Shown here one piece after another: positions 6,569 to 58,641 of a stretch of 64,000 nucleotides of DNA. Origin of the DNA: Micromonospora sp. WMMD1102 (GTDB taxonomy: Bacteria > Actinomycetota > Actinomycetes > Mycobacteriales > Micromonosporaceae). The position numbers were made by a program, and so were the translations under genes. How positions within the stretch are numbered: position 1 is the stretch's first letter; each line of letters starts with the position of its first letter. The stretch covers positions 2,418,001-2,482,000 of the forward strand of contig NZ_JARUBN010000001.1 in the NCBI RefSeq assembly GCF_029626265.1, written 5' to 3'. Under the pieces are notes generated by a model. It saw only the letters and a list, made by a program, of their open reading frames with translations. It was not told the origin of the DNA and searched no databases.

Positions 6569-6594
6569 ATATGGCGGACCGCCCGTCGCCATAT
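6569..6594. repeat. perfect 8-bp inverted repeat upstream of the type II PKS operon
   Basis: ATATGGCG at 6569-6576 and CGCCATAT at 6587-6594 are perfect inverted copies with a 10-bp spacer, giving an 18-bp centre-to-centre distance that suits a dimeric regulator on one DNA face. The right arm overlaps the first TATAG heptamer of the adjacent putative SARP promoter, so binding of a repressor here could compete with activation. The protein that binds is not identified. Confidence 0.45.
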
Positions 6595-6623
6595 AGGAGA
6601 AATATAGTCGCGGCTCACAGACT
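6592..6623 (+). promoter_or_regulatory. putative SARP-type promoter of the type II PKS operon
   Basis: Two heptamers, TATAGGA (6592-6598) and TATAGTC (6603-6609), are separated by 4 bp. Eight bases further on is CAGACT (6618-6623), which fits yAnnnT for a -10 box. No -35 box is needed in this layout: known SARP promoters have 7-bp direct repeats 11 bp apart with the last one 8 bp from -10. The start codon of the first gene is 132 bp downstream, leaving a leader. The same arrangement occurs at 23320, 34204 and 58610. Confidence 0.55.
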
Positions 6624-6755
6624 CGGGGCAGTACCGCGATCCGATGGTGCTGCCGGACGGGCCGATGCGGCAAACGGTATCGGGAAATGCGGCACACGGC
6701 GCAGCCGACGCAGGCAGCCATCCATTCGCTCAACCGATCCGTTTCTGGAGGCGAG

Positions 6756-7016
6756 ATGACCAGCACGACCCCGACCACCGACATCGACCGCGAGCAGGTC
6801 AAGGAGATCGTCTGCGAGATTCTGGAAATCGACGCCGACGAGGTCACCGAGACCAGTCTGTTCAAAGAGGACCACGGGGCGGACTCGCTGCTGGCGATCG
6901 AAATTCTCGCCGCTCTCGAGCGGAATCTGCACGTCACCATCGACCAGGCGGAACTGAGCCGAATGGTGAATCTGGCGGGCGTTTACGCCGTCATCGACGA
7001 GGCGTCGAAAGCCTGA
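6756..7016 (+). CDS. acyl carrier protein (type II PKS, first ACP)
   Basis: An 86-residue acyl carrier protein. The start at ATG 6756 is chosen because GGAGGCG lies just upstream and the four-helix fold begins there; a longer frame would add unstructured residues. The phosphopantetheine site is Ser44 in HGADSLLAIE. It is the first gene of the operon, 54 bp ahead of a ketosynthase, and would carry the growing chain for the ketosynthase and ketosynthase-like proteins downstream. ACPs placed directly before KS genes are typical of reducing type II PKS loci in actinomycetes that make polyene or cinnamoyl-like chains. Confidence 0.9.
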   Translation: MTSTTPTTDIDREQVKEIVCEILEIDADEVTETSLFKEDHGADSLLAIEILAALERNLHVTIDQAELSRMVNLAGVYAVIDEASKA

Positions 7017-7070
7017 CCGCGCCGCGCGCGGATGTCGGGTCGGAAGACTACGGGTGAATGAGGCGAGATC

Positions 7071-8318
7071 ATGAGCGTTCTGCCAGGCGATGCTCGGTCG
7101 CCCCGCCGGGTGGTCGTCACCGGGCTCGGCGTGCTGACAAGCATCGGGATCGGGGTCGAGGACTTCCTCGCCGGGCTGCGGGCCGGCCGGAGCGGAGTCA
7201 AGCCGATCACCGCGTTCGACACCACCGGATTCGCGTACGCCAACGGCTGTGAGATCAGCGACTTCGACCCGGCCCGCTGGCTGCACCGCGTCGACCCGGC
7301 GCAGCTCGGCCGGGCCAGCCAGCTCTCGGCCGCCGCCGCCGGCATGGCGGTCGCGGACGCGGGCCTGGCCGTCGAGGAGCTGCGGTCCCGCCGCGCCCTG
7401 GTGTCGGTGGGGACCACCGACGGGGAATCCCACGACCTCGACCAGCTGGTAGGGGTGCAGGTGGACCGGGGTCCGGAGCACTTCGACCCGGTGGTGGCCC
7501 GCCGGGTCCCCGCCGGCCGGCTCTCCTCCAGCATCGTCGCCGAACTCGGGCTGACCGACGTCGAGACGGTGACCATCCCGACCGCCTGCGCGGCCGGCAA
7601 CTACGCGGTCGGGTACGGCTTCGACGCGATCCGCTCCGGGGACGTGGAGGTGGCGCTCTGCGGCGGCGCCGACGCGCTCTGCCGGAAGACCTTCACCGGC
7701 TTCTACCGGCTCGGCACCATCGCCCCGGAGGCGTGCCAGCCGTTCGACCGCAACCGCAAGGGCATCCTCACCGGCGAGGGTGCCGGCATCCTGCTGATGG
7801 AGAGCCTGGACTCGGCGCGGGCCCGGGGCGCCCGGATCTACGCGGAGGTGCTCGGCTACGGGCTCAACTGCGACGCGTACCACCCGGTCGCGCCGGACCA
7901 GAACAGCATCGCCCGCTGCATCGAGCTGGCCCACCGCAACGCCGGGGTGAAGCCGGGCGACATCGACTTCATCTCCGCGCACGGCACCGGCACCAAGGCC
8001 AACGACGTGACCGAGGCCGGCGCCATCCGGCAGGTCTTCGGGGAACGCCCGCCGCGCACCGTCTCGATCAAGGGCATGATCGGGCACAGCATGGGTGCGG
8101 CCAGCGCGCTGGCCTCGGCGGCCTGTGCCCTGGCCATCACCCACCGGTTCATCCCGCCGACGGTCAACCACGTCGAGACCGACCCCGAGTGCGGGCTCGA
8201 CTGCGTGCCGAACGTCGCTCGGGAAGCCGAGCTGCGGGTGGTGCAGAACAACGCGCTCGCCTTCGGCGGCAACAACGCGGTGCTGATCCTCGGCAGGTAC
8301 GACGAGGTGGCGCCGTGA
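7071..8318 (+). CDS. beta-ketoacyl-ACP synthase (KS1, catalytically complete)
   Basis: A 415-residue FabF-type ketosynthase with an intact triad: Cys173 in TACAAGN, His304 in AHGTGTKAND and His339 in GHSMGAAS. The N-terminal RRVVVTGLGVLTSIG and C-terminal NALAFGGNNAVLIL motifs are present. It would perform decarboxylative Claisen condensation on ACP-bound malonyl units. The stop codon overlaps the start of the next ketosynthase by 4 bp (GTGA), so the two are translationally coupled. The conserved AYHPVAP segment between the catalytic motifs is shared with KS2 at 8315, which suggests both belong to one specialised group rather than to housekeeping FabF. Confidence 0.92.
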   Translation: MSVLPGDARSPRRVVVTGLGVLTSIGIGVEDFLAGLRAGRSGVKPITAFDTTGFAYANGCEISDFDPARWLHRVDPAQLGRASQLSAAAAGMAVADAGLAVEELRSRRALVSVGTTDGESHDLDQLVGVQVDRGPEHFDPVVARRVPAGRLSSSIVAELGLTDVETVTIPTACAAGNYAVGYGFDAIRSGDVEVALCGGADALCRKTFTGFYRLGTIAPEACQPFDRNRKGILTGEGAGILLMESLDSARARGARIYAEVLGYGLNCDAYHPVAPDQNSIARCIELAHRNAGVKPGDIDFISAHGTGTKANDVTEAGAIRQVFGERPPRTVSIKGMIGHSMGAASALASAACALAITHRFIPPTVNHVETDPECGLDCVPNVAREAELRVVQNNALAFGGNNAVLILGRYDEVAP

Positions 8319-9457
8319 CCGCGCTGGTGGTGGGGATGGGCGCGGTGGCCAGTATCGGCGGCAACACCGTCGAGTTCTTCGACTCGCTCTGCGCCGGCTA
8401 CAGCGGGCTGGCCGAACTGCGCGGCTTCGACCGCAGCCGGTACCGGGCACAGCACGCGTACGAGATCGACGACCGGCCGGGACCGGGCTGCGACGAGACC
8501 CTGCGGGCCAGCCGGTGGCTGGAGCAGGCGGTCGCCGCCGCACTCGCCGACGCCGGCCTCGACGACGACCTCGGGGACACCCCGGTGCTGGTCGGCACCA
8601 CCCTGCGGGAGCTGCGCTCGGTCGAGCTGAGCTGGCGCGACGGCGTGCCGTTCGACGTACGCGACCTGCACTTCGGCAGCGCGCTGCGCCAGCGGTTCGG
8701 GGCCAGCAACACGCACACCGTGGCGAACGCCTGCTCGGCCTCGCTCTACGCCCTCGGGCTCGGCATGGACCTGCTCGACGTCGGCGCCGCCGACACCGTG
8801 GTGGTGGCCGGGGTGGACGCGATCACCGAGAGCACCTACGGGCTGCTGGACCGCTGCTATCCGGAGGCGCCGGAACGGGTCCGGCCGTTCGACCGGGACC
8901 GCCGGGGCATGCTCCAGGGCGAGGGAGCGGTCGCCGTGGTGCTGCGCCGGGAGGCGGACGGCCCCGGCACCGGGCACCGGCACGCCCGGGTCCGCGGCGT
9001 CGCGGTGAACTGCGACGCCTACCACCCGTCCGCGCCGGACGCCAAGAGCATCGCCCTGGTCACTCGGGAGGCGCACCGCCGGGCCGGGATCGAGCCCGGC
9101 GACGTGGACCTGCTGATGCTGCACGGCACCGGCACCGCACTCAACGACGAGGCGGAGGCGCAGGCCGTCCGGGAGGTCTACTCCGGGGTCTCGCCGTCGC
9201 CGTGGATGACCGCGATCAAGTCGATGACCGGGCACACCGCCGGCGCCTCCGGGCTGCACAGCCTGGTGGTGGCGGTCGAGGCGCTGCGCTCCGGGGTGGT
9301 GCCGCCGATCCTCGGCCTGGACAACCCGATCGACGAGGTCGACGGCTTCCGGCTGGTACGCGGACACGCCGAACTGGCCGGCCTGCGCCTGGCCCAGGTG
9401 GACTCGTTCGGCTTCGGCGGACTGAACGCCGTCGCGATCGTGGAGAAGGTGACCTGA
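8315..9457 (+). CDS. beta-ketoacyl-ACP synthase (KS2, catalytically complete)
   Basis: A 380-residue ketosynthase starting at a GTG inside the previous stop (GTGA). Its triad is complete: Cys140 in NACSASLY, His270 in LHGTGTALND and His307 in GHTAGAS. It is shorter than KS1, mainly in the N-terminal half, but has the SFGFGGLNAVAIV end motif. Its stop overlaps the ATG of a KS-fold protein that lacks the catalytic residues, so KS2 plus that partner are the best candidate for a KS/chain-length-factor pair in this operon. Confidence 0.9.
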   Translation: MTALVVGMGAVASIGGNTVEFFDSLCAGYSGLAELRGFDRSRYRAQHAYEIDDRPGPGCDETLRASRWLEQAVAAALADAGLDDDLGDTPVLVGTTLRELRSVELSWRDGVPFDVRDLHFGSALRQRFGASNTHTVANACSASLYALGLGMDLLDVGAADTVVVAGVDAITESTYGLLDRCYPEAPERVRPFDRDRRGMLQGEGAVAVVLRREADGPGTGHRHARVRGVAVNCDAYHPSAPDAKSIALVTREAHRRAGIEPGDVDLLMLHGTGTALNDEAEAQAVREVYSGVSPSPWMTAIKSMTGHTAGASGLHSLVVAVEALRSGVVPPILGLDNPIDEVDGFRLVRGHAELAGLRLAQVDSFGFGGLNAVAIVEKVT

Positions 9458-10428
9458 TGGCTCCCGTCGACGTGGTGGTCAGCGGAGTGGGCCTGGCGGT
9501 CTCCGGGGTCGCCGGCCCCGACGACCTGCTCCGGCGCACCCCGGTCGCCGAGGACGGGGACGACCCGGCCCACCGGCTGACCGGCAAGGGACTGCGCTAC
9601 AAGGACCGGGCCACCCGGCTCGCGCTCTGTGCCGGGCGGGACGCGCTGGCCGACGCCGGGCTGCTCGGCGACCCCGGCCTGACCGTTCCCGGCGAGACCG
9701 TCGGCGTGGTGGTCAGCTCGAACTACGGCAACGTCGACACCGTCTGCGACACCGTGTCGACGATCGCCGCCGAGACGTACGCCGGGCTGAGCCCGATGAC
9801 CCTGCCGGCCACCGCCAGCAACGTGACCGCCTCCTGGCTGGCCATCTGGTTCCGGCTGCGCGGGGCGAACCTGACGATGTGCAGCGGGGCGACGTCCGGG
9901 CTGGACGCGGTCAACTGGGGTCGGCTGCTGGTGCTGGCCGGCCGGGTGGACCGGGTGCTGGTGGTCGGGGTCGAGCCGGCGAACGCGCCGGTGCGGCACC
10001 TGGTCAGCGGTGGTCGCAGCAACAGCGCGGCGGACCTGCGGCTCTTCGACGGGGCGGCGGCGCTGGTGCTGGAGTCCGCGGCGGCGGTGCGGGACCGGGG
10101 CGTCGAGGCGCTCGCCGCGCTCGGCCCGTACGCCCGCAAGGCGGACCAGCCGGCGGCGGTGGCGGCGATCCGGCGTACCGACCCGCGACCGGTGGACATG
10201 TGGTTCGGCGGCGGACCGGGTGGACCGGCCGGGACGACCGAGCTGACAAGTCACGACCTCACCTCCTATCACGGGCACTGCTCGGGTGCGCTCGGCGTGC
10301 TCCAGTGCGTCGCCGGCACCGCCTGGCTGAGCGGGCACGACCGGGGCGCCGTGCTGGCCAGCTCGGACGGCGCGGGCGCGGACGCGGCGGCGGCACTGCT
10401 GCTCACCGCCGGTGCGGGTGCGCGATGA
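9457..10428 (+). CDS. ketosynthase-like protein lacking the active site (chain-length-factor-like, KSx3)
   Basis: A 323-residue thiolase-fold protein, shorter than a normal ketosynthase. VVVSGVGLAVSGV and GETVGVVVSSNYGN match the N-terminal KS strands. At the nucleophile position the sequence reads CSGATSGLDAV, so the expected Cys in A-C-S-x-G-L is Thr. There is no HGTGT motif, while YHGHCSGALGV keeps the last His region. By analogy with KS-beta subunits it probably pairs with the KS encoded just upstream and affects chain length rather than catalysing condensation. The start ATG overlaps the previous stop (TGATG), and the gene end overlaps the hydrolase start. Confidence 0.75.
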   Translation: MAPVDVVVSGVGLAVSGVAGPDDLLRRTPVAEDGDDPAHRLTGKGLRYKDRATRLALCAGRDALADAGLLGDPGLTVPGETVGVVVSSNYGNVDTVCDTVSTIAAETYAGLSPMTLPATASNVTASWLAIWFRLRGANLTMCSGATSGLDAVNWGRLLVLAGRVDRVLVVGVEPANAPVRHLVSGGRSNSAADLRLFDGAAALVLESAAAVRDRGVEALAALGPYARKADQPAAVAAIRRTDPRPVDMWFGGGPGGPAGTTELTSHDLTSYHGHCSGALGVLQCVAGTAWLSGHDRGAVLASSDGAGADAAAALLLTAGAGAR

Positions 10429-11393
10429 GCACCGCCGCGCCGCCGAGGCCGAGCCACGCCGGAACGACCGGGGCTGTTGCCGGGACGACCGGAGCTGTTG
10501 CCGGGGTGACCGGTGCCGGGGCGTTGGTCCGGTGCCGGCGGCCGGGGGCCGGGACCCGTCCGGTGCGTACCCTGCTGCTGCACGGCCTGGGCAGCAGCCG
10601 GGGCATCTGGGACCGGTTCGAGTCGCGGGCGCCGGACTGGCTGGAACTGTGGGACGCCGAACTGCCCTGGGCGAGCGCCGGTGACGGCGGCTGGAGCCAC
10701 CGGTCCGACCCCACCGGCCCGCTGGCCCGGGCGCTGGCCGGCGTCGACGGCGGCGCCGACCTGGTGGTGGCGCACTCGTTCGCCGCGAACACCCTGCTGG
10801 AACTGCTCGGCCGGGCCGGTGCGGCCGAGACCGGGCCGGAGCAGATCCGGCCGGCGATGGCACCGGCGGCACCACCTCGGTCGGCGGCGGTGCCGCTGCC
10901 CCGGGCGGTGGTACTCGTCTCGCCCTTCTACCGGAGCGCCGCCGACGACTTCGACTGGGCCGCGATCGACTTCTACCTCAACCACTTCCACCGGATCCTC
11001 GAAGAGGGCATCCGGGTCAGCGCCCCGGCCGGGCTGCCCGCCGAGATCCGCGTCGCGATGGGCGAGCGGGTACGCGAGCGGATCGGCCCGTACGGCTGGA
11101 TGCGCTTCTTCGAGGCGTACCTGCGTACCCCGTTCCTGCCCGTCGCCGACCTGGCGCTGCCGCTGCTGGTGGTCGCCGGCGACGGCGACTTCGCCGCCCG
11201 GCCCGGTGACGGGCGGGCGCTCGCCGACGCGGCGCCGGACGGCCGGTACGCCCTGCTGCCCGACTGCGGCCACTTCGCGATGGCCGAGCACCCCGACCGG
11301 TTCGCCGCCCTGGTGGCGGACTTCGCCCGCCCGCTGTCGCCGCTGCACGCGGCACCGGAACCGATCCTCGACACACATCTGGAGCGCACGTGA
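10425..11393 (+). CDS. alpha/beta hydrolase
   Basis: A 322-residue alpha/beta hydrolase. It has the oxyanion-loop motif LLLHGLGSSRGIWD, a nucleophile elbow VVAHSFAANTL (A-H-S-F-A, with Ser as nucleophile), VVAGDGDF for the acid region and CGHFAMAEHPD for the catalytic His. The first 35 residues are Gly/Ala/Thr-rich with a repeated TTGAVAG. Within a type II PKS operon it could hydrolyse acyl-ACP or acyl-CoA thioesters as an editing or release enzyme. That role is inferred from position only. ATGA overlaps couple it to both neighbours. Confidence 0.8.
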   Translation: MSTAAPPRPSHAGTTGAVAGTTGAVAGVTGAGALVRCRRPGAGTRPVRTLLLHGLGSSRGIWDRFESRAPDWLELWDAELPWASAGDGGWSHRSDPTGPLARALAGVDGGADLVVAHSFAANTLLELLGRAGAAETGPEQIRPAMAPAAPPRSAAVPLPRAVVLVSPFYRSAADDFDWAAIDFYLNHFHRILEEGIRVSAPAGLPAEIRVAMGERVRERIGPYGWMRFFEAYLRTPFLPVADLALPLLVVAGDGDFAARPGDGRALADAAPDGRYALLPDCGHFAMAEHPDRFAALVADFARPLSPLHAAPEPILDTHLERT

Positions 11394-12379
11394 ACTCGAC
11401 GACCCTGGCACCCCGGCCCGTGGCCGAACCGCTCACCGACGGGGTGACCCGCGTGGACCTGCGGCCCCGCTACGAGGGATCCAACATCTGCACCTGGATC
11501 GGCTTCAAGCACGTCAACTACCTGGTGGAGGAGGTCGTCCTCGACCACCTGCGGCAGCGCGGCTTCGCCCCCGGCGGGCTCTACGAGCGGCACGGCCTCT
11601 GCGTCGACATCGTCGACATCGACACCCGGATCACGCACGCCTTCCACATCGACGACGTGGCGACGGCCGAGGTCCGGCCGCTGCCCGGGGACGCGCTCGC
11701 CTTCGCGGTGGAGATCTCGGTCCACGGGGTGCCGCCGGTCAAGGCGGTCAGCGCCAAGGTGCGGGTGGAGCTGCGCCACGACCCGCACGGGCACCCGGCC
11801 GAGCCGGCACCTGCCGAGCTGGCCCCGTACGCGGTGGCCCGGCTGGGCCAGGCGCCGGTCAAGGTGACCCGGCCGGCCGCCGCCGGTGCCGCCCCCGAGG
11901 GCGACGTGCTGGCCGCGCTCACCGCCGGCCGCAACGCGTACGCCTGGAAGTGGCGGATCCCGTACTTCTACTGCCACTTCACCGAGCGGATGCAGATGTC
12001 CGGCTACCTGCGGCAGATGGAGGAGGTCGTCGACCTCTTCCTGGCCGACCGGGGCGTCTCGATCAAGACGCTGCTGGACGAGCAGGACTGGATCCCGGTG
12101 GTGCCGCACTCCCGGATCACGCTGCTGGACGAGGCGCGGATGGAGGAGGAGCTCTACACCGTCTTCACCGTGGAGAACGTCTTCAAGCGGCTCACCTACA
12201 CCTCGCGGATGGACTGCTACGTGCTGCGCGACGGCATCCTGGTGCCGACCGCGACCGGCAAGATCACCCACGGGTACGCGGTGATCGGCAGCCGCCGGGA
12301 CTGGACCCTGGTGGACTTCGACGACCGGCTGGCCAGCGCGCTGGAAGGTGCGCCGGCCGCTTCGAGTACACGTCGATGA
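11390..12379 (+). CDS. double-hotdog-like acyl thioesterase/dehydratase protein
   Basis: A 329-residue protein starting at a GTG that overlaps the hydrolase stop. Residues about 25-125 contain SNICTWIGFKHVNYLVEE and GLCVDIVDIDTRITHAFH, similar in layout to 4HBT-type hotdog thioesterases. Residues about 185-310 contain ERMQMSGYLRQMEEVVDLFL and RLTYTSRMDCYVLRDG, which look like a second hotdog half. No single catalytic residue could be assigned with confidence. In this operon it could act as a thioesterase, a dehydratase or a structural partner of the polyketide complex. It sits between the hydrolase and KS4 with 4-bp overlaps. Confidence 0.55.
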   Translation: MNSTTLAPRPVAEPLTDGVTRVDLRPRYEGSNICTWIGFKHVNYLVEEVVLDHLRQRGFAPGGLYERHGLCVDIVDIDTRITHAFHIDDVATAEVRPLPGDALAFAVEISVHGVPPVKAVSAKVRVELRHDPHGHPAEPAPAELAPYAVARLGQAPVKVTRPAAAGAAPEGDVLAALTAGRNAYAWKWRIPYFYCHFTERMQMSGYLRQMEEVVDLFLADRGVSIKTLLDEQDWIPVVPHSRITLLDEARMEEELYTVFTVENVFKRLTYTSRMDCYVLRDGILVPTATGKITHGYAVIGSRRDWTLVDFDDRLASALEGAPAASSTRR

Positions 12380-15484: not shown

Positions 15485-15497
15485 GGGGGAGAGACAG

Positions 15498-16613: not shown

Positions 16614-16616
16614 GCC

Positions 16617-19176: not shown

Positions 19177-19186
19177 GGTGGCGGGC

Positions 19187-20620: not shown

Positions 20621-20876
20621 CCAGCTCACCACGGGGCTCGACAAGGAAGACCTGCGCAAGCTCATCGCCGACACCATCGACGTCGACCTGGCCGAGGTCA
20701 CCGACGAGGCGCACTTCGTCAACGACCTGGAGGTGGACTCCCTGATGGCCCTGGAGATCACCGTCCGGCTGGAGAAGCGGTACGGCGTCAAGATGGAGGA
20801 GAGCGAGCTGATCGCGGTAAGCACGCTGGACAGCACCTACCAGCTCCTCGACGGCAAGCTGCGGGGCGGGTCGTGA
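20613..20876 (+). CDS. acyl carrier protein (second ACP of the operon)
   Basis: An 87-residue ACP with the phosphopantetheine Ser43 in LEVDSLMALE. It overlaps accC by 8 bp, and GAGAGGACGGAAAG precedes the ATG. It is followed by two hotdog dehydratase-type genes and a ketoreductase, so it is probably the substrate carrier for the reductive steps, whereas the first ACP sits beside the ketosynthases. Whether the two ACPs serve different chain stages cannot be told from sequence. Confidence 0.92.
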   Translation: MSDQLTTGLDKEDLRKLIADTIDVDLAEVTDEAHFVNDLEVDSLMALEITVRLEKRYGVKMEESELIAVSTLDSTYQLLDGKLRGGS

Positions 20877-21762: not shown

Positions 21763-21770
21763 GGAGCGAG

Positions 21771-22517: not shown

Positions 22518-22551
22518 CGCGTACCGCCTCGGAGTATCCGAGGAGTTTCCC

Positions 22552-23319: not shown

Positions 23320-23351
23320 TATAGCCCGAATAGAGACGTCGACCGTACGGT
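23320..23351 (+). promoter_or_regulatory. putative SARP-type promoter of the FAAL cassette
   Basis: Heptamers TATAGCC (23320-23326) and TAGAGAC (23331-23337) are separated by 4 bp. Eight bases later is TACGGT (23346-23351), a good -10 fit. The gene start is 60 bp further on. The second heptamer is the weakest of the set. Confidence 0.5.
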
Positions 23352-36552: not shown

Positions 36553-36618
36553 CCGGCCTCCGGCCGGCGACCTGACCGACCAGGTGACCCGGCCTCCCGC
36601 CGGCGCCCTGACCGACCA
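36553..36618 (+). repeat. 30-bp imperfect direct repeat upstream of mbtH-like gene
   Basis: 36553-36582 and 36589-36618 match at 27 of 30 positions by eye and both end in CTGACCGACCA. They lie in the 172-bp gap between sbnB and the mbtH-like gene. A function such as a binding site is not known; it may be a local duplication. Confidence 0.7.
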
Positions 36619-36632
36619 CACGAGGAGTTCCG

Positions 36633-36848: not shown

Positions 36849-36878
36849 CCGCCCCCGCGACGAGGTGAGGAGCACCCG

Positions 36879-51000: not shown

Positions 51001-53092
51001 GGAGTTGACGGCGGAGCGTTTCGTGCCGGATCCGTTCGGTGCGACGCCGGGTGGTCGGCTGTACCGCACCGGCGACCAGGTCCGGATGCTGCCGGGCGGT
51101 GACGTGGAGTTCGTGGGTCGGGTCGACGACCAGGTGAAGGTGCACGGTTATCGGATCGAGTTGGGTGAGATCCGTTCGGTGTTGCTGGCGCATTCGGCGG
51201 TCCGGGACGCGGCGGTGGTCGCGGTGGGTTCGGCTTCGGACAAGCGGTTGGTGGCCTACTGCGTGCCGGCTTCCGGGGAGTTGCCGGTGAGCGGGCTGGT
51301 CGAGCACTGCGGGGCGCGGTTGCCGGAGTACATGGTGCCGGCGGTGTTCGTGTCGTTGGATGCGTTGCCGTTGAACGCGAACGGGAAGGTGGATCGTCGG
51401 GCGTTGCCGGATCCGGATTCGGCTGTGGTGGATGCGGGGCCGGTGTTCGTGGGTCCGCGGTCGGAGACTGAGGAGCGGGTCGCCGCCGTGTGGCGGGAGG
51501 TGTTGGGTCTGGATCGGGTCGGGGTGACGGAGAGTTTCTTCGATCTGGGTGGGCATTCGATCCGGGCGGTGGCCCTGGTCGGGAAGTTGCGGGCGGCCGG
51601 GTTCGAGGTGGCGGTCCGGGACGTGTTCCAGTACCGCACCGTCGCCGAACTCGCCGAGAAACTCGCCGGCCAGCCGGTCGCCGAGCAGCCGGCCGAGGCG
51701 GGTCCGGTGGCGCCGTTCGGGCTGATCTCCGGCGAGGACCGGGCCGCGCTGCCGGCCGGGGTGGTCGACGCGTACCCGCTGTCGCAGGTGCAGCTCGGCA
51801 TGGTGGTGGAGATGCTCGGCGGGGTGGGCGGCAACCGCTACCACAACACCAGCTTCTTCCGGATCCGTGACGAGCGGCCCTTCCAGCCGGCCGCGCTGCG
51901 CGAGGCGGCCCGGATCGTGGTGGCCCGGCACGAGCTGCTGCGTACCTCGTTCGACCTGACCAGCTATTCCGTGCCGATGCAGCTCGTGCACGGCACCGCC
52001 GAGATGCCGGTCGAGGTTCGCGACGTACGGCACCTGGACGAGGCGGGCCGGGAGCAGGCGCTGCACGAGCTGATCGCCCGGGAGCGGGCGAACCTGTTCG
52101 AGCTGACCGACCCGCCCCTGCTCCGGATGGCCGGGTTCGTGGAGAGCGACGTCGCCTGGCGGCTCGGCTTCACCCAGTGTCACGCGATCACCGAGGGCTG
52201 GAGCCAGCAGTCGCTGCTGATGGAGGTCCTCGACCTCTACCGGCAGCTGGCCGCCGGAGCGGCACCCGAGCCGGTCGCCGCGCCGCCGGTCCGGTACGCC
52301 GACTTCATCTCCGCCGAACTCGACTCGCTGGCCTCGACCGAGGACCGCGACTACTGGCACGGGATCGTCACCCGGTACGCCCGGTTCACCCCGCCGGCCG
52401 GGTGGGGCGAGGCACCCGAGGAGACCGGCAGCTTCCGGATCCCGGTCGGCTTCCCCGACCTCGAGCCGGGGCTGCGGGCGCTGGCCAGCGCGACCCGTAC
52501 CTCGATGAAGGCCGTGCTGCACGCGGCGCACCTGAAGGTGATGAGCCAGCTCACCGACGAGCCGGCGTTCTTCACCGGCCTGGTGTGCAGCGCCCGCCCG
52601 GAGGTCGACGGCGCCGACCGGGTCTACGGGATGTACCTGAACACCCTGCCGTTCCCGCACGACCGCACCGCCGGCACCTGGGGCGAACTGGTCCGGCAGG
52701 TCTACGACCGGGAGGTCGAACTCTGGCCGCACCGGCGCTATCCGATGCCGGCGATCCAGCGCCAGGTCGGCGGGCGGCAGCTGATCGAGGTGATGTTCAG
52801 CTACCAGGACTTCCACCAGGTCGACACGGAGCTGGTGGACGTCCGGGCCGGTGCCGGCGACGCCGCCAACGAGTTCGCGCTCGCGGTCTCGACCGGCCCC
52901 GGGCACCTGATGCTGCGGGTCCGGCGTTCCGCGCTGACCCAGCAGAACGCCGAGCGGGTGGTGGCGATGTACCGGACGGTGCTGGAGGCGATGGCCGCCG
53001 GTGCCGACGGGAACGCCCGGGCGGCGTACGTGCCGGCGGCGGAACTGGCCGCGGTGCTGACCGACTGGAACGACACGGCCGTGGAGTGGTGA
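42005..53092 (+). CDS. NRPS2: C-A-T-C-A-T-C-A-T-C, three A domains and a terminal C domain
   Basis: 3695 residues. The first C (about 30-490) has HHVACDA. A3 (about 500-1010) has code DVWNVAMVH, the same as A2. A4 (about 1570-2060) and A5 (about 2640-3140) both read DLPKVAEVG, closest to Asn codes. Each A is followed by a T with LGGHS. The second to fourth C domains form a distinct subgroup starting YPLSxVQxGMVVEML; their core motif is H-x-x-x-Glu-Gly (His1261/Glu1265, His2334/Glu2338, His3393/Glu3397), with Glu replacing the usual Asp. The last C ends the protein, so it must work with the A-T of NRPS3. No epimerase domain is visible. Confidence 0.93.
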   Translation: MSTGEGTIERGVEAAREELLRARLAGRLRGGRRAALTRVDRNGPLPLSFGQQQMWFLSRLDPGSWEYLVPLALRLRGTLDAAALRRALTGLVGRHEILRTRYALADGEPVQVIDPAGPVELAVTDLTELPEAEREARGFERAAQEPAVPFDLGTQWPVRSRLIRLADDDHLLVVVFHHVACDAWSAGIFAEELSELYAAALAGRPDTLAPLPVQYADYAAWERGREATEHQRHLDYWRRQLAGVPPLDLPADRPRPATREWAGAAVELELPAGLGGQLRDLAQRHGATLFMVLLTGYQALLSRYTGGTDIPVGTVVSGRNRPELSRLIGYGINSLVMRARWDSDITFAELLAANRETVLAAFDHQEVPFGQLVDELQPDRDMSRTPLFQVAFTMHEAGDGRYAMPGLAVSPLDALSQVSRFDLTLQVQEAADGGLRAHLEYATALFDRATVRRLGGHLVRLLQAAVAEPGRALSAVDLLDEAERAEVTGVANPFRIDAVPPTLTVHQVFEQRVAAAPDAVAVTFEGVSLSYAEVNVRANRLAHRLRALGAGPESLVGVCLERGLDLVPTLLGVLKSGAAYLPLDPAQPVDRLGFMVGDAGASVVVTQSSLAGTVAGFSAGAVVDLDEEDLSGQPAENPVPLSGPENLIYVIYTSGSTGKPKGVCLTHANVLRLLTVGETHYRFSADDVWPLFHSYAFDVSVWELWGALLYGGRLVVVPREVTRLPDEFLDLLVAERVTVLNQTPSAFRSLVGFARDGDPRLAALELRAVVFAGEKLEMAELAPWTDRFGLDRPALLNMYGITETTVHSTFHQVRAQDITDPGNPVGYPLGDLRIYLLDGYGNLVPVGVPGEIHVGGPGVARGYLRRPELTAQRFVPDPFAGVPGARMYRSGDLARRRPDGGLDFLGRIDDQVQIRGYRVELGEIETVLAAHPGIRDAVVVVREDIPGDKRLAGYLVAQGEQVPNPAELREFLARSLPEYMVPAAFVSLAKIPLTANGKLDRRALPAPDRAALHGEQAYVAPRTPVEERVAAIWRDVLGLERVGVHDSFFDLGGHSIRAVALVGELRAIGLDVSVRDVFAHRTVAELCGILDGRSTPAAEERPVAPFELLSAEDRAKVPAGAADAYPLSRVQAGMVVEMLSDGELHAYHNVTSFRIRDERPFGLAALREAARIVVARHEVLRTAIDLTTYSVPMQVVYPDAEMPVGERDLRHLDAAELDRSLREFTAVERADVFDLAQPSLMRLHAHVCDDKTWWLSVTECHAIIEGWSHHSLLMEVLDLYRQIRDGGTPPPVEAPPVRFADFIAAELRSLDSAEDREYWRDIVGRYARFSLPTGWGDPDAPRESLMLGVPFHDLDADLRKLASRAKASLKTVLLAAHLKVMSQLTAEESFLTGLVLHGRPEVVGADQVYGMYLNSLPFGYDRGARTWRELVTRTYAREMEIWPHRRFPMPEIQREFGEGQRLMDVRFSYHDFDQVDRDLVDYMASIDDSPTEFPLAVAVRLGYVTMAVNPRALSRANGDRIGAMYRAVLEAMAADPDGDARGTFLADEERQRCVVEWNRTTAEPAGPSVPERFAAQAAATPDAVAVECAGQRLGYAELDERANRLARHLRACGVVPESVVGVLLDRTPELLVTMLAVWKAGGAYVPLDPAHPADRLADMLADAGARVVVTGSGYADRFPQIPVRVLVDRDAAAVAEQPETPLPVPADLDRLAYVIFTSGSTGRPKGVAVSHRGLVNHVSWAARELAGRGVGGSALFSSVAFDLVVPNVWAPLVSGQRVWLAGPELDMADLGRELVAAGPFSFLKLTPGHLEVLAHQLAPGQATGLAGITVVAGEAFTRHTLERWRECAPDAVLVNEYGPTEASVGTCTFPVLGVPVSEVVPIGRPLPGMAMYVLDADLAPVPVGVLGELYVGGVGVARGYVNRPELTAERFVPDPFGSAGGRLYRTGDLVRVSATGDVEFVGRVDDQVKVHGYRIELGEIRSVLLAHSAVRDAAVVAVGSASDKRLVAYCVPASGELPVSGLVEHCGARLPEYMVPAVFVSLDALPLNANGKVDRRALPDPDSAVVDAGPVFVGPRSETEERVAAVWREVLGLDRVGVTESFFDLGGHSIRAVALVGKLRAAGFEVAVRDVFQYRTVAELAEKLAGPVPETTTDGTTVPATAVAVATGASIDGPTVAPFALISTEDRAALPAGVVDAYPLSQVQLGMVVEMLADSDLHAYHNVTSFRLRTERPFGLAALREAARIVVERHELLRTSFDLTSYSVPMQLVHDTAEIPIGVRDLRQLDAAGRKQAIREFTAAERAELFDLGVAPLLRFTVHEESDEAWWMSVTVSHPITEGWSHRAMLTELLELYQQIRAGGTPEPATRPAVRYADFIAAELDSLASAEDRDHWRGIVDGYARLSLPTGWADAPDTPREPYSVTVPVRDLEPELRKLATATRTSLKAVLHAAHLKVMSQLTDEPVFFTGLVCSARPEVDGADRVYGMYLNTLPFGHRRGAATWGELVRQVFDREVELWPHRRYPMPAIQRELADGQRLLDVRFSYQDFDAVDTELVDVESGLGEGATEFGLAVAAMTGSLVLTADTHTLSRPEAARVGEMYRAVLAAMAATGAGGNARGTQLPAGERDRLLDEYAVNPVEAPTRTVPELVAEMAATHPERTAVALGELELDYAELDARANRLARHLRSRGVGPESLVGVLLDRGPDLIATFLAVWKTGAAYVPLDPSFPADRVNAMLADAGARVVVTRSRHADRFDPGLDCVLVDTERLEIGNRPSSPISEPADLDRLAYVIFTSGSTGRPKGVAVSHRGLVNHVSWAARELAGRGVGGSALFSSVAFDLVVPNVWAPLVSGQRVWLAGPELDMADLGRELVAAGPFSFLKLTPGHLEIIGQQAEAAQLAALAEIVVVAGEALPGPVAEHWRGILGDGRLVNEYGPTEASVGTCVYPVRGPQTVEVVPIGRPLPGMAMYVLDAELSPVPVGVLGELFVGGVGVARGYVNRPELTAERFVPDPFGATPGGRLYRTGDQVRMLPGGDVEFVGRVDDQVKVHGYRIELGEIRSVLLAHSAVRDAAVVAVGSASDKRLVAYCVPASGELPVSGLVEHCGARLPEYMVPAVFVSLDALPLNANGKVDRRALPDPDSAVVDAGPVFVGPRSETEERVAAVWREVLGLDRVGVTESFFDLGGHSIRAVALVGKLRAAGFEVAVRDVFQYRTVAELAEKLAGQPVAEQPAEAGPVAPFGLISGEDRAALPAGVVDAYPLSQVQLGMVVEMLGGVGGNRYHNTSFFRIRDERPFQPAALREAARIVVARHELLRTSFDLTSYSVPMQLVHGTAEMPVEVRDVRHLDEAGREQALHELIARERANLFELTDPPLLRMAGFVESDVAWRLGFTQCHAITEGWSQQSLLMEVLDLYRQLAAGAAPEPVAAPPVRYADFISAELDSLASTEDRDYWHGIVTRYARFTPPAGWGEAPEETGSFRIPVGFPDLEPGLRALASATRTSMKAVLHAAHLKVMSQLTDEPAFFTGLVCSARPEVDGADRVYGMYLNTLPFPHDRTAGTWGELVRQVYDREVELWPHRRYPMPAIQRQVGGRQLIEVMFSYQDFHQVDTELVDVRAGAGDAANEFALAVSTGPGHLMLRVRRSALTQQNAERVVAMYRTVLEAMAAGADGNARAAYVPAAELAAVLTDWNDTAVEW
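43566..44820 (+). repeat. A2/A3 homologous block, copy 2 (within NRPS2)
   Basis: This is the partner of 40210-41463. Identical runs cover the A4-A5 and A6-A8 motif regions. Short diverged patches at about 44269-44310 show normal high-GC3 codons, so the mosaic is visible at base level. Confidence 0.8.
47120..47437 (+). repeat. A4/A5 identical block I, copy 1
   Basis: 318 bp that read identical to 50345-50662, covering motif A3 through the specificity pocket start. TTG, GTG and GGT codons are unusually frequent compared with flanks. Confidence 0.85.
47870..48443 (+). repeat. A4/A5 identical block II, copy 1
   Basis: About 574 bp that read identical to 51098-51671, spanning the end of the A domain and the whole T domain up to the linker before the next C domain. 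Confidence 0.85.
50345..50662 (+). repeat. A4/A5 identical block I, copy 2
   Basis: Partner of 47120-47437 at an offset of 3225 bp. The sequence between this block and block II is diverged, so homogenisation is patchy. Confidence 0.85.
51098..51671 (+). repeat. A4/A5 identical block II, copy 2
   Basis: Partner of 47870-48443 at an offset of 3228 bp, three more than block I, so a one-codon length difference lies between the two blocks. Confidence 0.85.
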
Positions 53093-53097
53093 GCAGC

Positions 53098-56000
53098 ATG
53101 AGTCGATCGGTGCACCACGTCGTCGAGGCACAGGCGGCGGCCACCCCGAGAGCGGTGGCGGTGGTCCAGGGAGGCGAGCGGGTCCGGTACGCCGAACTCG
53201 ACGCGCTGGCGAACCGGTACGCCCGGCACCTGCGGGCGGCCGGCGTCGGGCCGGAGTCGGTGGTCGGGGTGCTGCTGTCCCGCGAGCCGTCCCTGCTGGC
53301 CTGGCTGCTGGCCGTCTGGAAGGCCGGTGCGGCGTACGTGCCGCTGGATCCGGAGCTGCCGGCGGAACGGCTCGGCTACATGCTGGAGACCGCCGGGGCG
53401 GAGCTGGTGGTGAGCGAGTCGAAGCTGGTCGGGCGGCTGGCCGGGGTCTACTCCGGCCGGCGGGTCCTCGCCGACCGGGACGAGGCCGTGATCGAGTCCC
53501 GGTCGGCGGAGCCGGTGCCCCGCCGGGACGACCAGCACCAGCTGGCGTACATCATCTTCACCTCCGGTTCGACCGGGCGGCCGAAGGGTGTGCAGATCTC
53601 GCACCGGGCGCTGCTGAACCTGCTCTTCTCGATGCGCCGGCTGCTGGACGCCGGCACCGAGGACGTCTGGCTCGCCGCGACCTCGCTCTCCTTCGACATC
53701 TCCGGCCTGGAGCTGTACCTCCCGCTGGTCACCGGCGGCCGGCTGGTGCTGGCCGACGACGACGAAGTGGGGGACAGCCCGGAACTGCTCGGCCTGCTCG
53801 ACCGCTTTCCGGTGACCCACGTCCAGGCGACCCCGTCCGGCTGGAAGCTGCTGCTGGACGCCGGGTTCGGCAACCGTCCGGTGGTGGCGCTGGTCGGCGG
53901 CGAGGCGCTGCCGCCGGCCCTCGCCGGTGAGCTGCGCGGCCGGGTGAAGCGGCTGGTGAACGTGTACGGCCCGACCGAGACCGCGATCTGGTCGACGAGC
54001 TGGGACGTGCCCGGTGAGGTCGAGGTGGTGCCGATCGGACGGCCGATCGCGAACACCCGGACCTACGTGCTGGACCGGGACTTCCAGCCGGTCGCGGTCG
54101 GCGTGGTCGGCGAGCTGTACATCGCCGGTGACGGCGTCGCCCGCGGGTACGTCAACCGTCCCGAGCTGACCGCCGAGAAGTTCCTGCCGGAGCCGTTCGG
54201 CCGGGCGGTCGGGGCCCGGATGTACCGCACCGGCGACCTGGTCCGGTACGGCCCGGACGGCAACCTGGAGTTCCTGGGCCGGGCGGACCACCAGGTGAAG
54301 ATCCGGGGGCACCGGATCGAGCTGCCCGAGATCGAGGAGCGGCTGCTCGCCCATCCGGACGTCCGCAACGGCGTGGTGGTGGCCCGGGAGGACCCAGGCG
54401 GCGAGAAGTGGCTCGCCGGCTACGTCGTACCGGTGGACGGCCGGCCGGTCGAGCCGGCCGGACTGCGCGACTTCCTCGCCGCCGCGCTGCCCGGCTACAT
54501 GGTGCCGGCCGCCTTCGTCACCCTGGACGCGCTGCCGCTGAACCCGGCCGGCAAGGTGGACCGGCGGGCGCTGCCGGCGCCGGAGCGGACCTCGTTCGGC
54601 GGCGAGCGCGAGTACCTGCCGCCGCGTACCGAGACCGAGCGGCGGATCGCCGAGGTCTGCGCGGAGGTGCTCGGCCTGGACCGGGTGGGTGTGCACGACA
54701 GCTTCTTCGACCTGGGTGCCGACTCGATGCGGATCGTGCAGCTGGTCACCGCCGGGCGTCGGGCCGGGCTGCCGGTGTCGCTGCGGATGCTCTACCAGAA
54801 CGGCACCGTCGCCGACCTGGCCGTGGCGCTCGGCGACCCGCCCCCGCCCAGCACCGTCGTCGAACCGACTGCGCCGAGCACCGTTGTCGGACCGGCTGCG
54901 CCGAGCACCGTTGTCGAACCGGCTGCGCCCGTCGTCGAACCCGCCCAGCCCGTCGCCAGCACCGGCTCCGGTGTGGTCCGGGCCGAGGCGCGTCCGGTCG
55001 GCCGGCTCGGCGCCGGGCCGTCGCCGCTGCCCCTGATGGCCGAACACCACATCCCCGGCGCGAGTGTCGCGCTGGTCCGGGCCGGCCAGCTCGCCGAGGT
55101 ACGCGGCTACGGCGTACTCGCCGCCGGCGGGTCGGAGCCGGTCACCCCGGAGACCCCGTTCCAGGTCGCCTCGATCAGCAAGCACGTCACCGCGCTCGGG
55201 GTGCTCCGGCTGGTCGCCCAGGGTCGGCTGGAGCTGGACGCCGACGTGAACCGGTACCTGACCTCGTGGCGGCTGCCCGACGGCGGCGCACCGGTCACCG
55301 TACGGCACCTGCTGGCGAACCTCTCCGGCCTCTCCACCAGCCCGAACACCGGGTACGCCCCGACCGAGCCGGGCCCGTCCCTGCTCGACGTGCTGTACGG
55401 CCGCCCGCCCGCCACCTCCGCGCCGATCCGGCCCGAACTGGTGCCGGGGGAGTCGTTCCGGAAGACCAACAGCCACTACGCGGTGCTGCAACAGGTGCTC
55501 GTCGACCTGACCGGGGAACCGTTCCCGGAGCTGATGCGGCGGCTCGTGCTGGCCCCGCTGGGCATGACCGACAGCAGCTTCGACCCGGCGTTCCCGACCG
55601 ACCCGGCCCGCCGGGTCGCGCTCGGCCACGACGCACACGGGGTACCCGTACCCGGTGGCTGGCGCAACCGTCCGGCGCTGGCCGGCGGCGGTCTCTGGAC
55701 GACCGCCGCGGACCTGGCCCGGGTGCTTGTCGAGGTCCACCGTGCCCGGCTCGGCAACGGTGAACTGCTCACTCCGGCGCTCGCCGCCGAGCTGGTGGCG
55801 GTCGCCGCACCGGGTAGCTTCTACGGGCTCGGCACGGTCGTCGACGACACCGCGCCGGACCTGGAGTTCGGGCATCCTGGCGAGACGGTCGGCTACCGGG
55901 CGATGACGCTGGGGCGGCTCGGTGCCGGTGACGGCTTCGTGGTGCTGACGAACGCCGAGTCCGGCAAGGCGGTGCAGTCGTTCGTGGCGACCGAGCTGGC

Positions 56001-57105
56001 CGGCTGGGCGGAGCGTCCGGCGGCCGTGGCGGAGACCGGCGCCTACGCTGCCGCCGACGGCGAGACCGTCGGGATCGCGGCGACGGCCGGCCTGCCGGCC
56101 GACCGGGCCCGGGACCTGCCGCCGGCCGGCGGCACGGCGCAGGAGGAGGCACGGATGGTGCGGCACCTGATCTCGATAAACGACCTGACCGACGAGGACC
56201 TGCGGTCCATCGTCGCCCGGGGGGTGCGGTTCCGGTCCGGGCAGGCCCGGCGGGAACGGCCGCTGCACGGCGACGTGGTCGGGGTGTACTTCCGGAAGAC
56301 CTCGACCCGGACCCGGACCGCGTTCTCCAGCGGCGCGCTGCGCCTCGGCGCGCAGATCGTCGGGTACGGGCCGGACGACCTCCAGCTCAACACCGGTGAG
56401 ACGCACGCCGACACCGGCCGGGTGATGTCCCGGATGCTCGACCTGCTGGTGGCCCGCACCGCGGGCGATCCGGCGGAACTGCGGGCGCTCGCCGACCAGG
56501 ACCGGATGTCGGTGGTGAACGCGATGAGCGCCGACGAGCACCCGACCCAGGCGCTCACCGACCTGACCACGATGCTCGACCACTTCGGCCGGATCGACGG
56601 GCTGCGGGTGCTCTACGTGGGGGAGGGCAACAACAGCGCGGCGGCGCTCGCCCTGGCCCTGACCCGGTACGCCGGCACCCACCTGGAGCTGCGCACGCCC
56701 CCGGGGTACGGGCTGACCGAGGAGATCGTGGCGACCGCCTCGGCCCAGGCGGCCCGGGGTACGGCGACTATCCACCGGCGGCACGACATGGCCGAGCTGC
56801 CCGGCGGCTTCGACGTCGTCTACACCACCCGGTGGCAGACGACCGGCACCAGCAAGCCCGACCCCAACTGGCGGGAGATCTTCGCACCGTTCCAGGTCGG
56901 CAAGGAACTCTGGGTGGGAAGCCCGGACGCGGTCTTCATGCACGACCTGCCGGCGCACCGAGGCGAGGAGGTCACCGCCGAGGTGCTGGACGGTCCGGCG
57001 AGCATCGCCTTCGAGCAGGCGGAGAACAAGCTGCACAGCGCGATGGCGGTGTTGGAGTGGTGCCGCCGGGGTCCGGTGGACGGACCGCCGGGAACCGGAA
57101 CGTGA
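53098..57105 (+). CDS. NRPS3 fusion: A-T, beta-lactamase-fold release domain, carbamoyltransferase
   Basis: 1335 residues in one uninterrupted frame. A6 (1-500) has code DILQLGVIW, a close Gly match; T carries LGADS near residue 540. A Pro/Val linker with three 27-bp repeats follows. Residues about 640-975 are a class C beta-lactamase/CubicO-type domain with SISK (Ser692, Lys695), NSHYA as the Tyr motif, and HPGETVGYR near the end. From Met1020 the sequence is an ornithine-carbamoyltransferase-like protein: RKTSTRTRTAF, DEHPTQALTDL and HDLPAHRGEEVT. The start is ATG 53098; GTG 53089 would overlap the NRPS2 stop (GTGA). The beta-lactamase part may act like PBP-type thioesterases such as SurE. 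Confidence 0.88.
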   Translation: MSRSVHHVVEAQAAATPRAVAVVQGGERVRYAELDALANRYARHLRAAGVGPESVVGVLLSREPSLLAWLLAVWKAGAAYVPLDPELPAERLGYMLETAGAELVVSESKLVGRLAGVYSGRRVLADRDEAVIESRSAEPVPRRDDQHQLAYIIFTSGSTGRPKGVQISHRALLNLLFSMRRLLDAGTEDVWLAATSLSFDISGLELYLPLVTGGRLVLADDDEVGDSPELLGLLDRFPVTHVQATPSGWKLLLDAGFGNRPVVALVGGEALPPALAGELRGRVKRLVNVYGPTETAIWSTSWDVPGEVEVVPIGRPIANTRTYVLDRDFQPVAVGVVGELYIAGDGVARGYVNRPELTAEKFLPEPFGRAVGARMYRTGDLVRYGPDGNLEFLGRADHQVKIRGHRIELPEIEERLLAHPDVRNGVVVAREDPGGEKWLAGYVVPVDGRPVEPAGLRDFLAAALPGYMVPAAFVTLDALPLNPAGKVDRRALPAPERTSFGGEREYLPPRTETERRIAEVCAEVLGLDRVGVHDSFFDLGADSMRIVQLVTAGRRAGLPVSLRMLYQNGTVADLAVALGDPPPPSTVVEPTAPSTVVGPAAPSTVVEPAAPVVEPAQPVASTGSGVVRAEARPVGRLGAGPSPLPLMAEHHIPGASVALVRAGQLAEVRGYGVLAAGGSEPVTPETPFQVASISKHVTALGVLRLVAQGRLELDADVNRYLTSWRLPDGGAPVTVRHLLANLSGLSTSPNTGYAPTEPGPSLLDVLYGRPPATSAPIRPELVPGESFRKTNSHYAVLQQVLVDLTGEPFPELMRRLVLAPLGMTDSSFDPAFPTDPARRVALGHDAHGVPVPGGWRNRPALAGGGLWTTAADLARVLVEVHRARLGNGELLTPALAAELVAVAAPGSFYGLGTVVDDTAPDLEFGHPGETVGYRAMTLGRLGAGDGFVVLTNAESGKAVQSFVATELAGWAERPAAVAETGAYAAADGETVGIAATAGLPADRARDLPPAGGTAQEEARMVRHLISINDLTDEDLRSIVARGVRFRSGQARRERPLHGDVVGVYFRKTSTRTRTAFSSGALRLGAQIVGYGPDDLQLNTGETHADTGRVMSRMLDLLVARTAGDPAELRALADQDRMSVVNAMSADEHPTQALTDLTTMLDHFGRIDGLRVLYVGEGNNSAAALALALTRYAGTHLELRTPPGYGLTEEIVATASAQAARGTATIHRRHDMAELPGGFDVVYTTRWQTTGTSKPDPNWREIFAPFQVGKELWVGSPDAVFMHDLPAHRGEEVTAEVLDGPASIAFEQAENKLHSAMAVLEWCRRGPVDGPPGTGT
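54847..54927 (+). repeat. 27-bp in-frame tandem repeat (3 units) in NRPS3 linker
   Basis: Units at 54847, 54874 and 54901 encode PSTVVEPTA, PSTVVGPAA and PSTVVEPAA between the T domain and the beta-lactamase-fold domain. Confidence 0.85.
56141..56157 (+). promoter_or_regulatory. internal ribosome binding site and start codon of the carbamoyltransferase part
   Basis: AGGAGGAGG at 56141-56149 lies five bases before an in-frame ATG at 56155. That ATG is exactly where ornithine-carbamoyltransferase homology begins (MVRHLISINDLTDEDL). A separate 316-residue enzyme could therefore be made from inside the fused reading frame, which has no stop codon between the two parts. Confidence 0.65.
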
Positions 57106-58625
57106 GCATCGTGGACGACAAGCCCGCCCCGCCATCCGGCGGGGCGGCGCCGTCCGTGCCGCCTGTCGCCGTAGTGCCTGCCGCCGCGCCGCCTGCCTAC
57201 GCGCCGCCTGTTTCCCCTGGGCCGTCTGCCCCCTCTGCACCGTCTGCCCCCTCTGCGCCGTCGCTCGCCGAGCCGCCGGCGTCGGTGCCGCTGCGGCGCA
57301 ACCGGGACTTCCTGCTGCTCTGGGCCGGGGCGGCCGGCACCATGGTCGGGGCCCGGATCACCTCGATCGCCTACCCGATGCTGGTGCTCTGGTACACCGG
57401 CTCGGCCGGCAACGCCGGGCTGGTCGGTGCCGCCGCGCTGCTGCCGCACCTGCTGGTGCAACTGCCGGCGGGCGCCTTCGTGGACCGCTGGGACCGGCGC
57501 CGGCTGATGATCTTCTGCGACCTGGGCTGCCTGCTCGCCACCGGCAGCGTGGCGCTGGCGGTACTCTTCGGCCGGGTCTGGGTGCCACAACTCATGGTCG
57601 TCGCGTTCGTGCAGACCAGCCTGAGCGTCTTCTACCAGCTCTCCGAGCGGGCCGCCGTCCGGCACCTGGTCCCGGCCGAACAGCTGCCGAGCGCGCTGAC
57701 CCAGAACGAGACCCGGGGCCGGGCCGCGGTGCTGGTCGGTCAGCCGGTCGGCGGGCTGCTGTTCACCCTGGCCCGCTGGGCGCCGTTCCTGTTCACCACG
57801 CTCGCCCACCTCGGCTCGCTCGTCGCGCTGCTGCTGATCCGCCGGCCGTTCCAGCAACCCCGGCCGACCAGGCCCGGCACGGTGCGCGCCGACATCGCCG
57901 AGGGCGTGGCCTGGCTGTGGCAGCAGCGGTTCCTGCGTACCGTGCTCGGTTTCGTCGCGATCAGCAACGCGGTGTTCCAGGCGCTGACCCTGGTCCTGAT
58001 GGTCACCATCCGCAACGGCGGCGGTTCGGCCGCGCTTGTCGGTGCGGTGATCGGGGCCAGCGGGGTGGGCGGGATGCTCGGCGCGCTGAGCGGCATGTGG
58101 TGGCTGCGCCGGGCCACCCTGCGGACCCTGGTGGTGGGCGGGCTGGCCGCCTGGGCGGTGACGGTGCCGTTGATGGCGTTCACCACCGATCCGGTCAGCC
58201 TGGCGGTGATCTTCGCCGTCAACAGCTACGTCGGCGGCCTGTTCAACGTGGTCGGCGGGGTCTATCTGGTGCGGATCACCCCGGACCCGATGATGGGCCG
58301 GGTCGGTGCCGTCGCCACGCTGCTCGCCTCGGGGGCGAACTTCCTCGGCGCACTGGCCGGCGGGGTGCTGCTCGGCGGTGCCGGGGTCCGGGCGACGGTG
58401 CTGGGCTTGAGCGCCGTGATGGCCTCGCTGGTGCTGCTCGCCGTCGCCAGCCCGGCGGTGCGGGGGATCGCCAGGAGTCCGGACAACGCCCGGATGGTCC
58501 GCCGGCTGGGCCGGCACGCCGCGCCGGGCCGGAACATCGTCCCGCCGGCAGCCGGTGGCCTGTGGCTAAACGGTGCCGGAGCAGGGGTCCAGCGGCTCGA
58601 TGGCCGCAGTATCGAGAAAGTATAG
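57102..58625 (+). CDS. MFS transporter (enterobactin exporter EntS-like family)
   Basis: A 507-residue permease that starts at a GTG overlapping the NRPS3 stop (GTGA). The first 60 residues are Pro/Ala/Ser-rich with an APSAPS repeat. About ten to twelve membrane helices follow from residue 68. DRWDRRRLMIFCDLG is the MFS loop 2-3 motif, and SERAAVRHLVPAEQLPSALTQNETRGRAAVLVGQPVGG is characteristic of the EntS-like group. It is the last gene of the NRPS operon and a second export candidate besides the ABC pump. Its stop codon lies inside the last heptamer of the next promoter. Confidence 0.9.
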   Translation: MSIVDDKPAPPSGGAAPSVPPVAVVPAAAPPAYAPPVSPGPSAPSAPSAPSAPSLAEPPASVPLRRNRDFLLLWAGAAGTMVGARITSIAYPMLVLWYTGSAGNAGLVGAAALLPHLLVQLPAGAFVDRWDRRRLMIFCDLGCLLATGSVALAVLFGRVWVPQLMVVAFVQTSLSVFYQLSERAAVRHLVPAEQLPSALTQNETRGRAAVLVGQPVGGLLFTLARWAPFLFTTLAHLGSLVALLLIRRPFQQPRPTRPGTVRADIAEGVAWLWQQRFLRTVLGFVAISNAVFQALTLVLMVTIRNGGGSAALVGAVIGASGVGGMLGALSGMWWLRRATLRTLVVGGLAAWAVTVPLMAFTTDPVSLAVIFAVNSYVGGLFNVVGGVYLVRITPDPMMGRVGAVATLLASGANFLGALAGGVLLGGAGVRATVLGLSAVMASLVLLAVASPAVRGIARSPDNARMVRRLGRHAAPGRNIVPPAAGGLWLNGAGAGVQRLDGRSIEKV

Positions 58626-58641
58626 ATCTTGCCGGCATCCT
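58610..58641 (+). promoter_or_regulatory. putative SARP-type promoter of the dioxygenase genes
   Basis: TATCGAG (58610-58616) and TATAGAT (58621-58627) are 11 bp apart, overlapping the end of the MFS gene. CATCCT (58636-58641) is eight bases downstream. The dioxygenase starts at 58737. Confidence 0.5.

Follow-up and report, generated by a model that had tools for sequence, protein, structure and literature searches.

The four arrays of TATAG-type heptamers that stand before separate units of a PKS/NRPS cluster very probably serve as operators for the medium-size SARP that the same cluster encodes, and TATAG would be the operator word of the SARP clade to which this protein belongs. They lie in "the window", by which we mean the whole stretch of 64,000 nucleotides that was analysed (Table 1). 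The promoter layout of SARPs was already known; what would be new is a specificity for TATAG shared by an entire clade, together with the possible control of two clusters. That the arrays constitute a SARP regulon (i.e. that they are bound, that binding activates, that this particular SARP is the activator, and that transcription starts where the layout places it) is what we infer from sequence.

The nine TATAG-type heptamers and their coordinates all held when the letters were re-read: every one of them belongs to a direct repeat with an 11-bp period, and in 4/4 arrays of the window the last heptamer stands exactly 8 bp before a [CT]AnnnT hexamer, the proposed -10, so that both traits of a SARP-type promoter are present. 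Each array is also 5' of the first gene of its own co-directional unit, as the sequence-only reading had said. Array 1 precedes an acyl carrier protein gene (Pfam; start near 6756) and then ketosynthases, in a unit whose Pfam domains suggest that it is type II PKS-like; array 2 precedes a FAAL-type ligase gene (AMP-binding by Pfam; start near 23411); array 3 the PALP/OCD (diaminopropionate-type) genes and the NRPS (PALP start 34344); and array 4 two TauD-type dioxygenase genes (first start near 58737). The start codons of these adjoining genes are predicted ones, and units 1-3 are putative single operons of predicted extent. The fifth unit, in which the SARP gene itself is found, has no TATAG box, since from 58642 up to 63073, where the SARP gene starts, no TATAG pair occurs at up to two mismatches; the 568-bp gap that precedes this unit (60665-61232) is likewise without a box.

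Table 1. Arrays, units and genes discussed in the text (window positions, except for the last line; unit contents and domains from Pfam)
Feature	Coordinates	Strand	Letters or content
Array 1	6592..6623	+	TATAGGA-gaaa-TATAGTC-n8-CAGACT; heptamers 6592-6598, 6603-6609; -10 CAGACT 6618-6623
Array 2	23320..23351	+	TATAGCC-cgaa-TAGAGAC-n8-TACGGT; heptamers 23320-23326, 23331-23337; -10 TACGGT 23346-23351
Array 3 (three heptamers)	34204..34246	+	GATAGTT-tcga-TATGGGG-ctgg-TATAGCC-n8-CAGGAT; heptamers 34204-34210, 34215-34221, 34226-34232; -10 CAGGAT 34241-34246
Array 4	58610..58641	+	TATCGAG-aaag-TATAGAT-n8-CATCCT; heptamers 58610-58616, 58621-58627; -10 CATCCT 58636-58641
Unit 1	6756..23298	+	ACP, ketosynthases, carboxylase subunits, dehydratases, ketoreductase, DsbA-like protein
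Unit 2	23411..34130	+	FAAL-type ligase, two acyl-CoA dehydrogenase-like, carrier, condensation domain, ABC/FtsX transporter
Unit 3	34344..58625	+	PALP, OCD, MbtH, NRPS, beta-lactamase-fold, carbamoyltransferase-like, MFS transporter
Unit 4	58737..60664	+	two TauD-type dioxygenases
Fifth unit	61233 to 65836	+	AMP-ligase 61233, SARP 63073-65025, thioesterase to 65836
SARP gene	63073..65025 (window ends 64000)	+	650 aa; Trans_reg_C DNA-binding domain, BTAD, NB-ARC
Lasso-peptide cluster	G000:C1:4276441-4281300		about 1.8 Mb from the window cluster, unlinked

Since this promoter anatomy is that of published SARP promoters, we propose the same action with a different operator word. On the model of AfsR, two or three protomers of the SARP would bind abreast, each occupying one 11-bp turn across the -35 region; once bound, they would recruit sigma together with RNA polymerase to the -10, a weak one situated 8 bp past the last heptamer, and this recruitment would switch on the four units of the PKS/NRPS lipopeptide-type cluster.

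How rare is the box? On both strands of the window, four TATAG pairs with at most one mismatch in total occur at spacing 11, where word frequencies lead one to expect 0.02. In an enumeration of all 5-mers of the window at spacings 8-14, codon-periodic G+C words at 9 and 12 ranked first and TATAG at spacing 11 fell outside the best 25 rows, so that we relied on searches of the whole genome instead. Over its 8,920,919 bases the pair alone, at 0-1 mismatch, is found at nine places (four in the window, two in a lasso-peptide cluster and three others), and the pair followed by BANNNT at gap 8 at six places, all of them in these two biosynthetic clusters. The three other pairs (3491488, 6509582 and 6711255) were set aside, a -10 at gap 8 being absent. 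The sequence-only reading would have been abandoned if similar arrays had turned up elsewhere at random frequency, which they did not; it had also asked whether such hits are confined to the present cluster, as 4/6 boxes are, the other two lying in the unlinked lasso cluster. At two mismatches the full box gains nine scattered places and reaches 15, against 21 for a reversed control (a rough one, its word make-up differing from that of the pattern), so that degenerate boxes are indistinguishable from noise. The pair alone at up to two mismatches gives 135 places against 528 for this control, whose word is commoner by its make-up.

The arrays are also conserved. Orthologous clusters are present in 4/6 Plantactinospora congeners (G002, G003, G004 and G005). 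With the source genome (G000), five Plantactinospora genomes have the cluster, and each of them carries the four arrays, the fourth being on a different contig in P. endophytica (G002). The second heptamer of array 2 is TATGGAC in the four congeners. Across the five genomes, 63/69 box positions are invariant, compared with 490/861 flank positions. One-mismatch pairs number 6 in G005, all in the two clusters, 12 in G003 (P. mayteni), six of which are in the two clusters, 6 in G004 and 7 in G002 (four in the cluster in each case); the reversed control gives 20-46 per Plantactinospora genome. In P. endophytica a second SARP of the clade (G002:C42:21065 and 23803) lies at a separate locus, with a TATAG array of its own some 2 kb from it.

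SARP matches at E 1e-65 or better, with the best six candidates scored per genome, are present in 48 of the 354 genomes of the family. Up to 40 kb was fetched around 30 of these relatives (1.17 Mb in all; 29 in other genera and the second SARP of G002), and these neighbourhoods contain 57 TATAG pairs at up to one mismatch. BANNNT lies at exactly gap 8 in 46/57 of them, while the runner-up among gaps 0-24 has four, and several of the 11 that miss gap 8 are reverse readings of a place already counted. Spacings from one exact word to the next are 11 in 23 cases, 24 in two and 27 in one. No TATAG pair was found in ten regions (400 kb) around the 11 next-best SARP paralogs of the source genome. The 45 distinct gap-8 sites (those of G002 excluded) give the consensus TATAGrg-n4-TATAGcs-n8-CAnnnT, with mismatches concentrated in the upstream heptamer (20 versus 3 downstream); this agrees with the greater importance of the downstream repeat for AfsR, as stated in the part of PMC10936776 available to us.

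As the 30 neighbourhoods were selected by the presence of a SARP, only the genome search with the exact box counts as unselected. It returned 50 hits in 38/354 genomes, compared with three for the reversed control. No more than 65 kb separates 34 of these boxes from a SARP (the 1e-65 matches, plus those of G034 and G044); five are near a PALP ortholog only, and for the other 11 the contig shows no known SARP and no PALP ortholog within that distance, although their 1.5-kb flanks include, in G080, a SARP that is more distant and, in G300, a fragment of one. Counted by genome, a SARP at 1e-65 is present in 25/38 genomes with the box and in 23/316 others (Fisher p 5e-16, ignoring relatedness). 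Of 30 inspected loci, the box stands before a PALP ortholog in nine, before TauD relatives in three (G034, G044, G073) and before a KS ortholog in one (G114, 74%), all of these in other genera.

In a tree of 46 SARPs, that of the window groups with 30 others in a single clade (support 100/99), and a box lies within about 20 kb of 27/31 clade members and of 0/11 source-genome paralogs. This co-occurrence supports the proposal that TATAG reflects a SARP specificity; what goes beyond the sequence-only reading is that the TATAG type appears to be a property of the SARP clade, not of this cluster alone. Four clade members (G014, G148, G180 and G253) have no 0-1-mismatch box near the SARP; at two mismatches three boxes appear in G014 and one in G253, with none in G148 and G180, and exact boxes occur elsewhere in G148, on other contigs. 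The clade is retained in a quicker tree of 64 rows, where it has 38 rows, including two duplicates (SH-aLRT 99), and gains the SARPs of G016, G034, G044, G073 and G183; no box was found at 10 named non-clade loci of this tree. Among the other non-clade SARPs of the first tree a box is near 2/4 (G017 and G072, not G093 and G350). In these two genomes the SARP has, about 2 kb away, a TACAG/TATAG pair followed at gap 8 by a -10, which perhaps indicates a related operator specificity.

The SARP gene does begin at 63073, as had been read from the letters, and its Pfam domains (Trans_reg_C and BTAD, with NB-ARC) make the 650-aa protein a medium-size SARP in the sense of PMC12224297. The part of this paper available to us associates medium-size SARPs with NRPS and RiPP clusters, as is the case here. 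In a residue alignment, R92 and T88 of AfsR, which contact bases, correspond to R94 and T90 of the window SARP, T90 being replaced by Asn in several clade members; by our own count, heptamer position 1 coincides with the T contacted by R92. Within the DNA-binding domain, the residues that typify the clade (28 clade rows versus 13 others) include D68, Q87, R94, R107 and Q108, and R107 and Q108 in the wing and Q87 and R94 in the recognition helix are candidate specificity residues.

One could argue that the arrays are indeed SARP-type operators but are bound by another SARP of the genome (for example a global, AfsR-like one), the link with the clade being indirect. The source genome has 31 SARP-like matches, 19 of the other 30 are outside the tree, and the lasso cluster has boxes while the 60 kb fetched there contain no SARP, all of which could be invoked for such an activator. 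We nevertheless consider it improbable, because the regions of the 11 best paralogs are without the box, because 34 of the exact boxes, found without reference to SARPs, are near SARP matches of the clade's kind, and because G001 and G006, the congeners with neither cluster, have just three and two one-mismatch pairs. The idea that the arrays are chance AT-rich words near the promoters of a G+C-rich genome strikes us as scarcely credible: the pattern is admittedly not commoner than its reversed control at two mismatches, but chance would have to account for the genome-wide restriction of the 0-1-mismatch full box to two clusters, for its conservation in the genus, for the excess of exact boxes over the control in the 354 genomes, and for a -10 at gap 8 in most pairs around SARP relatives.

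The lasso-peptide cluster deserves separate discussion. Its boxes, at 4279231 and 4281176, stand one before an ABC transporter gene and one before the precursor gene (44 residues), which is followed by genes for an Asn_synthase-type cyclase and a Transglut_core3 protein. Both recur in the two congeners with the lasso cluster, G003 and G005, and in all three genomes a third, degenerate heptamer (CAAAGCT-like) lies upstream; the -10 at gap 8 is GATAGT or GAAGGT/GAGGGT. The lasso genes of the source genome are without a SARP match in the surrounding 60 kb that were fetched (the nearest is at 4317453, 39%), as are those of G003 and G005 in the 33-35 kb covered there, and each of the three genomes has one SARP match at 1e-65 (best six candidates scored), in the lipopeptide-type cluster. 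The simplest reading is that the lasso cluster may be under the trans control of the SARP of the lipopeptide cluster. In G073, G183 and G197 a clade SARP lies about 2-4 kb from the lasso cluster, with a box before the precursor, and G073 and G183 have in addition a weaker, two-mismatch box between the SARP and the lasso genes. Among the nine genomes whose cyclase reaches 58% identity or more, 6/6 of those with a SARP at 1e-65 have the box, as against 0/3 of those without (G060, G182 and G221; Fisher 1/84). An XRE-like/NB-ARC gene near the lasso cluster of G003 was considered as a SARP remnant and rejected, the match being confined to the NB-ARC part.

We lean, with some hesitation, towards the view that one cluster-situated SARP coordinates two unlinked clusters that differ in chemistry, the PKS/NRPS lipopeptide-type one and the lasso one, the latter having lost its own clade SARP in Plantactinospora, kept the operators and been captured by the surviving one, a capture which we propose would be possible because the clade has one common operator code. 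It seems to us rather unlikely, though deserving consideration, that the lasso boxes are left over from a local SARP that has been lost, and lie outside the control of the SARP of the lipopeptide-type cluster. The lasso clusters with a clade SARP within a few kb (G073, G183 and G197), set beside the Plantactinospora regions fetched, which have none, would fit such a loss; against it, both boxes keep the 11-bp period, the 8-bp gap and the third heptamer in 3/3 Plantactinospora genomes with the lasso cluster, each of which has its single 1e-65 SARP in the lipopeptide-type cluster. Coordination by one SARP would resemble the case of FscRI, where one regulator serves two separate clusters (antimycin and candicidin), although FscRI is reportedly a PAS-LuxR regulator, not a SARP, and its coordination of the two is said to rest on experiments. 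The lasso precursors of G000, G003 and G005 share a near-identical terminal stretch that begins GSLFT, with two Cys, perhaps that of a disulfide-bearing lasso. The box of the lasso transporter gene has upstream of it a palindrome, TTGCATAGA...TCTATGCAA (G000:C1, about 4281245-4281275), which could be the site of another regulator.

Known SARPs such as ActII-ORF4 use TCGAG-type heptamers, in contrast to the TATAG type described here. The layout is common to both, as the sequence-only reading had stated: the parts of PMC4393881 and PMC10936776 available to us give, for SARP promoters, a spacing of 11 bp between repeats and of 8 bp from the last repeat to the -10. AfsR of Streptomyces coelicolor (structures PDB 8jke, 8k60 and 8hvr) resembles the present system in its afs box, with two 11-bp direct repeats over the -35 and 8 bp to the -10, and in combining a SARP domain with an NTPase domain and the same base-contacting Arg and Thr (PMC10936776, in part). 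It differs in its operator word, CGTT(T/C)ATCGNN (PMC10972967, in part), in its additional TPR repeats and in being a global regulator. Like the window SARP, OtcR is cluster-situated (oxytetracycline cluster), and several promoters there have repeats 11 bp apart that end 8 bp from the -10; its repeat, e.g. CGGTCGAAG, is different, and was proven by repeat mutation in a reporter (PMC4393881, in part). PimR/SanG/PolR (PMC5930380) and PapR2 (PMC7040171) share heptamers, 4-bp spacers and two or three copies with our arrays, but the words are again different, CGGCAAG for the PimR type, whose operator does not overlap the -35, and GTCAGSS for PapR2, as given in the parts of these papers available to us. 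A further published word is TTGCAGT-N10 (PMC12224297, in part). The TATAG consensus thus matches none of the PimR, PapR2, AfsR and OtcR words in the parts of these sources at hand, and among the matches listed in open-licence PMC texts we found no description of a TATAG-type SARP box.

If the clade-wide specificity is real, a short DNA word would predict the promoters of this SARP clade across many genomes and several types of cluster, and silent clusters, even those without a regulator of their own, could therefore be assigned to an activator from sequence. The specificity of SARP operators would also become testable, one clade with a defined box standing beside 11 paralogs without it.

Neither an Rfam nor a tRNA scan of the 64,000-nt window gave a match. 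PALP and OCD (diaminopropionate-type), carbamoyltransferase-like and beta-lactamase-fold domains are encoded at 34344-36460 and 52177-57105 of the window, a combination which suggests that the product is a Dap-containing cyclic lipopeptide.
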